30,016 nt of DNA from a virus, in IMG/VR virus record IMGVR_UViG_3300042907_000357, positions 1 to 30,016 of that record, one strand, 5' to 3'. The notes beneath the pieces are model-generated. The model worked only from the letters and a program-made list of their open reading frames with translations, did no database searches and had not been told where the DNA came from. Made by a program: the position numbers and the translations under genes. Below are positions 6,240 through 30,016 of the stretch, piece by piece (positions within the stretch are counted from its first letter, which is position 1; each line of letters opens with the position of its first letter).

Positions 6240-6381
6240 ATCTTTAAATTAAAGACAGGGCTTCGCCCCTTTGTACTGCATCGTAATTCAGCACTTGCGG
6301 TGAGAATTCAACGAGACTCAAGCAATCTGCCCGTAGTCCCTTCAGAACCAACATTGATGTGATCTCTAAACGCCCTGAAGT
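6240..6381 (-). ncRNA. Candidate structured leader or small RNA (RNA2)
   Basis: Transcription from the promoter at 6388-6417 should begin near 6381. About 140 bases follow with no convincing gene. A possible stem pairs CTTCAG near the start (about 6380) with CTGAAG near 6345. The 3' end has a short GGGC-GAA-GCCC hairpin flanked by AAAG/CTTT (6251-6272) and then an AT-rich run, a weak terminator-like end. A 36-codon frame (6354 to 6244) exists but has only a poor ribosome site. It may be an attenuator-type leader of the small-gene operon or a separate RNA. Confidence 0.45.
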
Positions 6382-6387
6382 AATCCT

Positions 6388-6417
6388 ATTGTAGCAGAAG
6401 AGTTTTTCTATTGTCAA
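6388..6417 (-). promoter_or_regulatory. Strong sigma70-type promoter (P2)
   Basis: TTGACA (6417-6412), an 18-base spacer, and TACAAT (6393-6388) with TG at the extended -10 position. It begins just after the T-run of the terminator at 6423-6471, so it restarts transcription into RNA2 and the small-gene operon. Confidence 0.85.
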
Positions 6418-6422
6418 ACTAC

Positions 6423-6471
6423 AAAAAAAATCAACCTCCAGGAGAGAACGGGAATTCAATAATCCTGGAGG
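6423..6471 (-). terminator. Intrinsic terminator with 9-bp stem
   Basis: Perfect 9-base arms (6463-6471 and 6435-6443) are followed on the minus strand by TTGA and eight T residues. A competing pair exists: a 7-base segment at 6478-6484 is complementary to 6431-6437 and could lengthen or displace the stem. It ends the transcript from the promoter at 6521 and any read-through from the lysis genes. Confidence 0.85.
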
Positions 6472-6514
6472 CTGACAAGGTTGATATTTACTTCAGGAGG
6501 TGAAATATTCAACT
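6423..6514 (-). ncRNA. Candidate ~90-nt small RNA with anti-Shine-Dalgarno core (RNA1)
   Basis: A consensus promoter (6521-6550) and an intrinsic terminator (6423-6471) bound about 90 bases without a credible gene. The RNA carries CACCTCCT (6502-6495), the same core as the 3' end of bacterial 16S rRNA, in the unpaired part before the terminator stem. Directly after it, ten bases (6497-6488) are perfectly complementary to the 5' end of RNA2 (6383-6374). It may pair with ribosome sites or with RNA2. A simple leader whose signals are accidental is the alternative. Confidence 0.55.
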
Positions 6515-6520
6515 ACAATA

Positions 6521-6550
6521 ATTATAACATAGGTCTTAAAAGACTGTCAA
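6521..6550 (-). promoter_or_regulatory. Consensus sigma70 promoter (P1)
   Basis: TTGACA (6550-6545) and TATAAT (6526-6521), both perfect, with an 18-base spacer and a TG extended -10. The spacer contains a GTCTT-TT-AAGAC inverted repeat (6544-6533) that could be a repressor operator. It lies directly behind the 27-codon gene. Confidence 0.9.
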
Positions 6551-6551
6551 C

Positions 6552-6635
6552 TTATACAATTGCGTCTTCTAATTTAACAAGACCTTCAGCAGTCATTACC
6601 CATATTTGGGCTTCTTCTAAAGTTTCTTCTGTCAT
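6552..6635 (-). CDS. 27-aa acidic microprotein
   Basis: A short frame from ATG 6635 to TAA 6552 with a strong AAGGAG ribosome site 7 bases before the start. The product begins Met-Thr-Glu-Glu-Thr-Leu-Glu-Glu and forms one amphipathic acidic helix with a single Trp. The ribosome site and the tight fit after the 31-codon gene make translation likely. Function unknown. Confidence 0.55.
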   Translation of the reverse strand: MTEETLEEAQIWVMTAEGLVKLEDAIV

Positions 6636-8064: not shown

Positions 8065-8284
8065 CAGATTTCTTTCTTGCTCTTGGTCTGTTAGACTCAA
8101 CTAAAATTAACATTATTTGATCTATTCTTTCCTCAAGTCTGGTAACTTGGTCCTTAAGACTTTTTCCAGAATTTGGGACCAACTCAGAAAGGTAGTGTTT
8201 TACTAACCATCTAACTGATCCTACAAATGCAACTGCTATTGTGATTGCAGATACAATAAAGCCTGCCCACTGCTCTATGTTCAT
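8057..8284 (-). CDS. One-TM protein with coiled coil; holin or spanin-like
   Basis: A 75-residue protein with a membrane segment at residues about 8-26 (Gly-Phe-Ile-Val-Ser-Ala-Ile-Thr-Ile-Ala-Val-Ala-Phe-Val-Gly-Ser-Val), then a linker, then a Leu-heptad helix (residues about 42-65) and a basic tail. Such proteins occur directly before phage endolysins and are often called holins or membrane proteins of the lysis module. Its ATG overlaps the epimerase stop by 4 bases (ATGA), so the modification and lysis genes are translated from one message. Confidence 0.65.
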   Translation of the reverse strand: MNIEQWAGFIVSAITIAVAFVGSVRWLVKHYLSELVPNSGKSLKDQVTRLEERIDQIMLILVESNRPRARKKSDD

Positions 8285-9075
8285 ATATTACTCCTTATTT
8301 CAGATTGGATTGCTTGCTTAAATGTGTACTTGGGCTTCCACCCAAGAATATCCCTATTATCTAAAACAGGAATAGTAGACATATCTTGTATGCCTAATAC
8401 CGTATATTTAATGGCAAAGCCATTTTCTTTATATTCATTTACTACATCCATTAATGTTCTGGACTCTCCAGTAAAAATGTCTGTTGTTAGAGAACCATTA
8501 TTTTTGACATATTCCATAGCCATGACATTTGCCCTTGCTATATCTAATACATGTACATAGTCTCTTGTAGAAGTAATACTGTTTATTGTTATTTCTGGCT
8601 GCCGTCCAATTATTGAGAACAAGTTGGTTGATCCAATATCTTGAACTGTTGGGGTTCTACCCACTATGTTGAAGTACCTCAAAACGGCCACTGCAGGGCA
8701 AATGAGGCCTAATAGTCGCTCTTCCCATACCTTACCCTTAGCATAGGCGTTAAAAGGGCTGTAAACGGCTGCAGAGGACGCAAACACCACTGGTATGGAC
8801 GACACTCTGGCTACAATCGCAGTAGACAAGGTAGATAGCAAATTATTAAAGTAATAAGCCCAAGGCTTCTTCTTAGATTCTGGAATAGACTTTAAGGCTG
8901 ATAAATGAATTATGGCTATTGGATCTTGACCAAACAAATAACTAAATAGATAGATAGTGTTTCTACCAATCTTTTTATCTATCTCAATTACTTCATAGCC
9001 TGAGTCCTCAAGAAGTTCTCTTGTTGCCGTTCCTACATAACCACGAGATCCTGTTAGGACTACTTTAGAACTCAT
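8281..9075 (-). CDS. NAD-dependent sugar epimerase (GalE-like, extended SDR)
   Basis: Extended short-chain dehydrogenase. The N-terminal NAD site Gly9-Ser-Arg-Gly12-Tyr-Val-Gly15 is followed by a His-Leu-Ser-Ala segment, the Ser-Ser-Ala-Ala-Val-Tyr strand (residues 100-105), the catalytic Tyr111-x3-Lys115, and Leu-Arg-Tyr-Phe-Asn. This order is that of UDP-glucose/UDP-GlcNAc 4-epimerases. It has 264 residues against about 330 in typical GalE, so the sugar-binding part is short. It probably makes or interconverts the sugar nucleotide used by the glycosyltransferase next door. ATG 9075 is preferred over ATG 9105 because it puts the NAD motif at the usual distance from the N-terminus; the overlap with the upstream gene is 11 bases and the ribosome site is weak. 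Confidence 0.8.
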   Translation of the reverse strand: MSSKVVLTGSRGYVGTATRELLEDSGYEVIEIDKKIGRNTIYLFSYLFGQDPIAIIHLSALKSIPESKKKPWAYYFNNLLSTLSTAIVARVSSIPVVFASSAAVYSPFNAYAKGKVWEERLLGLICPAVAVLRYFNIVGRTPTVQDIGSTNLFSIIGRQPEITINSITSTRDYVHVLDIARANVMAMEYVKNNGSLTTDIFTGESRTLMDVVNEYKENGFAIKYTVLGIQDMSTIPVLDNRDILGWKPKYTFKQAIQSEIRSNI

Positions 9076-9985
9076 AGTAGTTATCCAAAATCTCACCATT
9101 AACAAAATCTAATCCACAGAACTTGCCGTATTCAGCCAATGTTCTTTCTGTTCCTAATCTATATTTTCCAACTGTACCGTCGCCCATTAGCGTAAGGGCA
9201 ATCTCGTCTTTAGATATCTTTTCTAACTTAGCCGTTTCATTTGGCCAATCGCCTGCAACAACTCGTCTTTGGTTCTTTCCAGTTGAATTTGGATTAGTAT
9301 AAAGATGAGACATAAACATCTTGCTTGGAATAAATAAATCATAGCCATTTGTATAGGCTCTTGCTGCCATAAATATTTCTTCACCATCAGCAAATATTAA
9401 TTCATTTGGGTCAAGAAACTTACCTTCAACAAATATGGATCCTCCAGATACAGTTATTGAATGTATATTTCCTTCTGGATTTCCAACTGTTCCTTGCATT
9501 GGTGTTCTGTAAAATTTAAATCTTTGCTTATCTTTCCAATAGAACTGACTTGGTACTTCTAAATGGTCACGCCATTTCTCTTCATCACCATCATACCAAA
9601 AAGGCTTGGGGTAGTTGGTAATCAATGGCTTTTTAAACCCATTAGCCTTGTGTCTATTTACTTCATCAATTAAGAATGTATCCCAGTTCTGATCAAATCT
9701 ACTGTGAGCATCTACTTGTAAGTAGTAATCTTCTCCAGCATAAAGTCTGTCAGCCAAATATCTTCCAAGACCCATTCCAAGATTGTCTGGTGCCTTGCTT
9801 TCAACTAATCTAACATTAGGAATTTGTCTTACTGGATCAATCCAAGAATTGTCTTCATAGAAAATTGAGTGGACACCAAAGACCAACTCTGTTTCTCCAG
9901 ATGATTTGTCTATTGCATCTCTAATCGTCTTTTCAAGTTCATAGTCGTGATAAGAGGTTATTTGAATAAAGATGCTTTTTTTCAT
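9065..9985 (-). CDS. Glycosyltransferase of Skp1-hydroxyproline GlcNAc-transferase type (GT60-like)
   Basis: A 306-residue GT-A enzyme. The opening Ile-Gln-Ile-Thr-Ser-Tyr-His-Asp-Tyr-Glu-Leu, the Phe-Gly-Val-His-Ser strand and the metal/nucleotide segment Tyr-Tyr-Leu-Gln-Val-Asp92-Ala-His94-Ser-Arg-Phe agree with the GlcNAc family (CAZy GT60, Pfam GlcNAc). So does the acceptor-side block Gly201-Glu-Glu-Ile...Ala-Arg-Ala-Tyr-Thr-Asn-Gly-Tyr-Asp-Leu-Phe-Ile-Pro...His227. In Dictyostelium the prototype adds GlcNAc to hydroxyproline on Skp1; relatives act on Thr in mucin-like regions. Here it follows a radical SAM gene and lies three genes after a prolyl-hydroxylase-like gene. The start ATG 9985 has a GGAAAG site and overlaps the upstream stop by one base; a longer frame to 10021 is not needed. 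Confidence 0.82.
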   Translation of the reverse strand: MKKSIFIQITSYHDYELEKTIRDAIDKSSGETELVFGVHSIFYEDNSWIDPVRQIPNVRLVESKAPDNLGMGLGRYLADRLYAGEDYYLQVDAHSRFDQNWDTFLIDEVNRHKANGFKKPLITNYPKPFWYDGDEEKWRDHLEVPSQFYWKDKQRFKFYRTPMQGTVGNPEGNIHSITVSGGSIFVEGKFLDPNELIFADGEEIFMAARAYTNGYDLFIPSKMFMSHLYTNPNSTGKNQRRVVAGDWPNETAKLEKISKDEIALTLMGDGTVGKYRLGTERTLAEYGKFCGLDFVNGEILDNYYEF

Positions 9986-10920
9986 TATTCTTTCCAGATA
10001 GCATGTACACAAGTTGTGCAAAGAGTCTCATAAGAATGCTTAATCATGTCTTGTCTTTCTTGGCTTTCCCAGATTTCCTTTATTGGCTTTTCATTAACAT
10101 TGCCAAATATAGTTTCAAAATCATAGTCATTGCAGCAAATAAATACAGCACCGTTTGCATTAATATGAATCCAAGTATCAGGTCTGCTGCCCATATTGTT
10201 ACAGCCAACTACCTTACCTTTGCCAGTTATTTGATTCTTCATGATTCCACGAGTATCTAAATATCCTGCTCTATCAACCAATGCAGTGTTTGGAGTTATG
10301 TTTATTTCTGGGAAGGCTTCTCTCATTTGCTTAACAGCAGTAGCCGTATCTCCAGTATTATCGTCTAAGTCAATTTCTGGAGCATTTGAAAGTAGTTCCA
10401 TGTACCCAAGAGAAGTCTCATTGATTCCATTTACCTGCATTGTAACTCTTTGATGAGGAAAGTTATCTATTGCGTATCTAATATTGTCCATTACTCTTTG
10501 GTGCATCTTTTCAGGCTTCCCCGTCATTTTTGCCCAAGTTGCAGCATCTGCAGAAGGTGTATTGAAATGAATCACATCAACTACATCACTGTATTCCTTG
10601 ATAATGTCCATCTTGTCTTTTGTTAGTGGAGAGCCATTTGTTAGGACCATTGTTCTTAATCCATGCTCTCTAAATAAATCAAGCATATCTCTGAAGTGCT
10701 TATAAAGCAATACTTCGTTGTAGTGTGCTGTGTATATAAAAGAAAATGATGGATCTACAAAGTCTCCAACGCCCTTTTTCAATTGTTCAATAATAGAACG
10801 AATAGTCTCAATAGGCATTGTGCCTCGCCCAATGACTGGGTTTTCTTCATAGGCTACAGGACAAAACCAACAGCCAAGATTACAAAGTCCGTTAGGATCC
10901 AGTTGAACTAATTTTATCAA
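9985..10920 (-). CDS. Radical SAM enzyme with SPASM-like C-terminus
   Basis: A 311-residue radical SAM protein. Cys13-x3-Cys17-x2-Cys20 binds the [4Fe-4S] cluster. A Thr-Asn-Gly-Ser segment (93-97) and later barrel strands follow. The C-terminal 75 residues hold Cys240, Cys262, Cys263, Cys301 and Cys304 around a Gly-Ala-Val-Phe-Ile-Cys-Cys stretch, as in SPASM-type auxiliary cluster domains, which often act on peptides or sugars. The substrate is unknown; its place between two oxygenases and a glycosyltransferase suggests a modification of the same target. The start is TTG at 10920 with a GGAGG site about 6 bases upstream; no ATG is available. It overlaps the upstream gene by 29 bases. Confidence 0.85.
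   Translation of the reverse strand: MIKLVQLDPNGLCNLGCWFCPVAYEENPVIGRGTMPIETIRSIIEQLKKGVGDFVDPSFSFIYTAHYNEVLLYKHFRDMLDLFREHGLRTMVLTNGSPLTKDKMDIIKEYSDVVDVIHFNTPSADAATWAKMTGKPEKMHQRVMDNIRYAIDNFPHQRVTMQVNGINETSLGYMELLSNAPEIDLDDNTGDTATAVKQMREAFPEINITPNTALVDRAGYLDTRGIMKNQITGKGKVVGCNNMGSRPDTWIHINANGAVFICCNDYDFETIFGNVNEKPIKEIWESQERQDMIKHSYETLCTTCVHAIWKE

Positions 10921-26112: not shown

Positions 26113-30016
<3,904 letters not shown>

Follow-up and report, generated by a model that had tools for sequence, protein, structure and literature searches.

Only a few phage small RNAs (sRNAs) aimed at host messages are known, and the systems closest to the one analysed here come from both bacteria and phages. 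6C RNA/B11 (RF01066; PMC10470900) is a small actinobacterial RNA whose two C-rich hairpin loops are directed at G-rich leaders, and repression of eccB4 by B11 survives mutation of either loop alone (PMC10470900). For c4, an antisense RNA made by phages P1/P7, the loops are believed to base-pair around a ribosome-binding site and so to block translation (PMC12197685), and VpdS (PMC12197685) is an example of a trans-encoded phage sRNA. We analysed a virus contig of 30,016 bases (the whole stretch is henceforth referred to as the window; GC content ~36-43% along its length), in which a short gene-free unit presents an exposed anti-Shine-Dalgarno (anti-SD) loop. The unit recurs in related phages, some of which carry a second loop complementary to a start codon.

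The small RNA unit and its surroundings

The earlier note on this DNA had described a consensus promoter and an intrinsic terminator enclosing about 90 bases with no gene, and each part of this description was borne out. The promoter matches the sigma-70 consensus at 12/12 positions, the sole such match within the 30-kb window; the terminator, a strong one that a simple scanner missed because its loop exceeds 8 nt, is visible in the fold; and the sRNA strand holds no contained open reading frame (ORF) of at least 20 aa, the one TTG frame (6244-6459) extending out of the sRNA. The unit therefore has the features of an independent sRNA, namely its own promoter, a Rho-independent terminator and no contained ORF. 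With its 5' end placed from the position of the -10 box, the predicted RNA folds at -31.8 kcal/mol compared to a mean of -14.9 for shuffled sequences, none of 200 shuffles being as good. A search of Rfam in the window and nine relatives gave no match at gathering score, only chance snoRNA matches with E>5. A gene beginning at AGGAGGTG of the other strand was also considered and rejected, as the window offers it no start codon close enough and the relatives have no evident one in common.

Features of the sRNA locus in the window (all positions are those of the 30,016-base stretch)
Feature	Position	Strand	Evidence or remarks
Sigma-70 promoter TTGACA-18-TATAAT, extended -10 (TG ahead of -10)	6521..6550	-	12/12 match; TTGACA 6550-6545, 18-nt spacer, TATAAT 6526-6521; relatives have a near-consensus promoter in this position
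Predicted small RNA, ~92 nt (5' end 6514)	6423..6514	-	Fold z -5.6; 16 relatives share the architecture
Hairpin 1 with anti-SD loop	6480..6513	-	CACCTCCT 6502-6495; loop CCUCC 6500-6496
Intrinsic terminator: long stem, C/U-rich loop, then eight T	6423..6476	-	Fold; stem 6476-6430, T run 6430-6423
27-aa ORF with SD, upstream boundary	6552..6635	-	Ends just ahead of the promoter
Second promoter TTGACA-18-TACAAT, very conserved (TTGACAATAGAAAAACTCTTCTGCTACAAT)	6388..6417	-	Promoter scan, relatives
Second unit, 'body A': probable structured non-coding RNA	6245..6382	-	Indels, compensatory pairs

The sRNA promoter begins one base past the 27-aa ORF, and upstream of it are lysis genes, for a D-Ala-D-Ala carboxypeptidase-like protein and for a lytic transglycosylase domain. 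On the other side, the second promoter precedes at least three unrelated bodies in the relatives, one shared by the window, L100, L112 and L115, another by L082 and L083, and another by L084, L087, L091, L094 and L111. Body A differs between relatives by single-base indels, which argues against a shared reading frame, and four of its predicted base pairs are changed on both sides. A third near-consensus promoter, TTGACA-18-TATACT, again with TG and an 18-nt spacer, is conserved in relatives and lies at 4187-4158 (- strand), where it precedes the genes for a 49-aa CxxC protein and an endonuclease VII-like protein; in several phages this last gene (start 3956, - strand), or its replacement, is preceded by the conserved leader GGAGGTRTAYGCATAATG. 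Elsewhere in the window, a cluster at 8281-10920 (- strand) encodes a radical SAM/SPASM protein, a GlcNAc-type glycosyltransferase and a nucleotide-sugar epimerase, which suggests surface or glycan modification, and a 1236-aa protein with collagen-like repeats (26113-29823, - strand) adjoins the portal gene.

Conservation of the unit in phage relatives and their probable host

We found 16 distinct relatives of the unit in phage contigs; wherever it was within reach, one and the same glycosyltransferase gene lay downstream of them. With the glycosyltransferase as bait, the unit region was recovered in L082, L083, L084, L085, L087, L088, L089, L091 and L094, each with one or two hairpins between a near-perfect promoter and a terminator; these are 9 of 13 bait loci, and the other four reach only 0.6-3.2 kb upstream and may fall short of the unit. 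A combined pattern added L097, L098, L099, L100 and L106. A pattern built on the downstream promoter, and thus blind to CCTCC, returned known members again together with L111, L112 and L115, all three of which contain the unit with CCTCCT. Five matches of the first pattern (L101, L103, L104, L107 and L109) were set aside, being without the family layout and looking like chance. Conservation of the core in related phages had been named beforehand as a point on which the proposal could fail, and CCTCC is kept in 16/16 relatives, hence in all 17 distinct units including that of the window; stems and flanks vary. In ten relatives the fold z ranges from -4.4 to -6.7 with loop cores mostly unpaired. 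The structural support for hairpin 1 is that each unit folds individually, the stems sliding in register between relatives. In the promoter spacers of L098, L115 and the window we also noted differing inverted repeats between the -35 and -10 boxes (e.g. CATAGG-N7-CCTATG in L115); these are possibly operators, a candidacy that was not retained for the family, the repeats being statistically clear only in L098 and L115.

A blastn search against 50,697 phage records gave no match. Capsid relatives of this phage within bacterial genomes are all in Actinomycetota and the best match of its portal protein among isolates is Pontimonas phage phiPsal1; given these matches and the low GC content, the host is likely a member of the low-GC freshwater actinobacterial order Nanopelagicales. 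The relatives are presumably freshwater contigs, as we read them from their sample numbers. Among phages, the relatives of the glycosyltransferase are cyanophage proteins (35%). For the search for targets we used two low-GC actinobacterial genomes from the probable host order, both nearly complete, G231 (40% GC) and G158, which were searched gene by gene over 98% and 94% of their contigs, respectively; genomes of this order are 0.6-2.2 Mb in size.

Loop layouts and complementarity to the DUF4193 gene

In the window sRNA the hairpin-loop CCUCC has an unpaired probability of 0.86-1.0. The octamer CACCTCCT, which the earlier note had placed in an unpaired part, is only partly loop: CCUCC is indeed exposed, but CCUCCU ends in a U that is mostly paired, and CA lies in the stem. 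The octamer itself occurs twice in the window where 0.81 copies are expected, the other copy lying inside an open frame; it is the complete unit, together with its persistence in relatives, that goes beyond chance, not the octamer alone. The claimed identity to the core of the 16S 3' end was confirmed and extended, since two genomes from the probable host order have GGATCACCTCCTTTCT as their 16S 3' end, and UCACCUCCU is therefore identical over 9 nt.

Four loop layouts were observed. One anti-SD hairpin is present in the window, L089 and L106; an anti-SD hairpin together with another hairpin in L082, L083 and L100 (with GUUCACAUGC) and in L111 and L112; two anti-SD hairpins in L087 and L088; and GUUGCCAUA followed by the anti-SD hairpin in L084, L091, L094, L097, L098, L099 and L115. 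In seven relatives the second loop, GUUGCCAU, is the complement of AUGGCAAC, that is, of a start codon and the next five bases, and it lies 5' of the anti-SD loop in the RNA, which is the order required for both loops to pair with one mRNA. Unrelated contigs were among the matches to GTTGCCATA...ACCTCCT...TTTTTT, and several of them read as the complement of ordinary SD+ATG start sites. We considered, too, whether UUGCCAU mimics the anticodon loop of tRNA-Gly.

The pattern AGGAGGTN3-12ATGGCA in the order of G231 and G158 led to the gene for DUF4193. For the two-loop RNAs, DUF4193 was the unique best gene in 7/7 cases in both G231 and G158, with 8+8 up to 9+12 nt paired; the strongest fit was that of L098, with 12 nt complementary at the SD and 8 or 9 nt at the start. 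When the scoring was repeated with every candidate start codon, in all frames of at least 40 aa because the first gene list had lacked proteins of <80 aa, DUF4193 was top or tied for 7/7 RNAs in G231 and 6/7 in G158, and by full-length duplex energies calculated without accessibility it ranked 1st to 12th. Since the two-loop RNAs are related, this agreement counts as one test, not seven. The sites concerned are rare: AGGAGGTG SD sites precede 1/1096 genes in G231 and 2/1109 in G158, the sole such gene in G231 being DUF4193, and 5/1096 genes of G231 start with ATGGCAAC, so that the chance of both loops agreeing on one gene by coincidence is ~0.5% in that genome; the picture in G158 is similar. 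Across the probable host order, GGAGGTN2-10ATGGCAAC was found in 68/296 genomes, and DUF4193 accounted for 24/30 loci inspected. In an unbiased look at 30 DUF4193 leaders, many but not all contained GGAGGTG and ATGGCAAC.

A conserved single-stranded seed complementary to a translation-initiation region is thus found in the two-loop relatives; the loop of the window copy pairs with DUF4193 over 9 nt, and other genes do equally well or better. With only an anti-SD loop, the window copy is the one whose target is least certain. For the one-loop RNAs of L089 and L106, DUF4193 was first or tied (10 nt). The units with UUACCUCCU and UUGCCUCCU point elsewhere or nowhere clear, DUF4193 ranking 95-121 for L111 and L112. 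As a target of the UUACCUCCU loop, AGGAGGTAATCATG, which belongs to a gene starting at the end of another gene, was rejected; rpmI (CAGGAGGUAA), which fits UUACCUCCUG by 10 nt, is a possible target of the UUACCUCCU loops, for which no further support was found.

The DUF4193 ribosome-binding site is among the strongest in G231, G158 and their order, and the protein has no solved structural relative by sequence. Its M. tuberculosis counterpart is, we assume, Rv2699c. Rv2699c is listed among strongly induced genes with a Shine-Dalgarno site (PMC3898074).

Proposed function and relation to known antisense RNAs

We consider it probable, though well short of certain, that the unit encodes a trans-acting phage antisense RNA that would mask, on selected host mRNAs, both the ribosome-binding site and the start codon. 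Host RNA polymerase would make the ~92-nt RNA from the consensus sigma-70 promoter and the RNA's own terminator would end it; the loop or loops would then pair with the SD and start codon of a few host mRNAs, on which 30S loading would be blocked. For the two-loop relatives, the host DUF4193 gene (AGGAGGUG...AUGGCAAC) would be the likeliest target, and since the two loops fit this gene better than any other, host-gene silencing during infection is probable. The one-loop copy in the window probably acts alike through an SD site, its target being less certain. More tentatively, these phages of freshwater actinobacteria may share a modular antisense RNA whose two exchangeable hairpins, antisense versions of the DUF4193 ribosome-binding site and start codon, would specifically silence that gene and whose loop variants would re-aim it to other host genes.

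The loop is the 16S anti-SD core and could pair with any GGAGG site, so that the RNA might instead act as a general shut-off that blocks all strong-SD mRNAs and favours phage messages. We regard this as unlikely: GGAGG precedes only 42/1096 genes in G231 and 43/1109 in G158 (~4%), and GGAGGT 14 and 9, whereas GGAGG is commoner in the phage genes of the window (5/42); moreover, a general shut-off would have no need of a start-codon loop. The earlier suggestion that the RNA binds ribosome sites is accordingly strengthened by the second loop in seven relatives, but general binding or titration of such sites is less likely than action on a few targets, given how rare GGAGGT is in the probable host order. 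GGAGG sites do occur at several downstream phage genes, and the RNA could regulate genes of the phage itself, the endonuclease VII-like one with GGAGGTATACGCATAATG being an example. This, too, we hold to be unlikely, as the loop flanks do not track R of GGAGGTRTA (window, L082, L083, L084, L091 and L097) and GGAGGTN3-12ATGG sites are almost absent in 18 phage records.

It is quite improbable that the RNA occupies a protein (e.g. the GTPase Era or a maturation factor) as a mimic of the 16S 3' end rather than pairing with mRNAs. Although several units match the 16S 3' end exactly with UCACCUCCU, others have ACACCU, UUACCU or UUGCCU before CC, which breaks identity with the rRNA and keeps complementarity to the SD, and such mimicry would leave the GUUGCCAU loop unexplained. 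We give very little credence to the reading that the unit is a leader or terminator gating the unit downstream: it does lie directly upstream of another conserved unit, but that unit starts from a promoter of its own, near-consensus and highly conserved, 5 bases past the T run, and its bodies vary independently of sRNA type.

If an antisense RNA against selected host messages is indeed made, this recurring gene provides a concrete host target for a phage sRNA, in phages that probably infect one of the most abundant freshwater bacterial groups, and it would be a first clue that DUF4193, a conserved actinobacterial protein of unknown function, matters in phage infection. By analogy, the sRNA would act like 6C/B11 or c4, a likeness of mode of action rather than of demonstrated membership in either family. 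Identity with 6C RNA was rejected: there is no covariance match to RF01066 in the window, nine relatives or 101 genomes of the probable host order, and the two loops with runs of ~six C are absent, the loops here being of the (U)CACCUCCU and GUUGCCAU types. That order has no copy of the unit either (0/296 genomes), so there is no obvious sign that a host sRNA was captured. Thus, whereas 6C/B11 is a host gene with C runs in its loops, the present RNA is a phage gene with anti-SD and anti-start-codon loops. VpdS differs in its association with Hfq and Vibrio; the present RNA has no Rfam match, shares no sequence with it and probably belongs to phages of actinobacteria, yet both are separate phage sRNA genes proposed to act against a host mRNA. 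With c4 it has in common that the loops of a phage RNA would pair around a ribosome-binding site, the difference being that c4 targets the ant mRNA of its own phage and the present RNA is an independent gene with a predicted host target.
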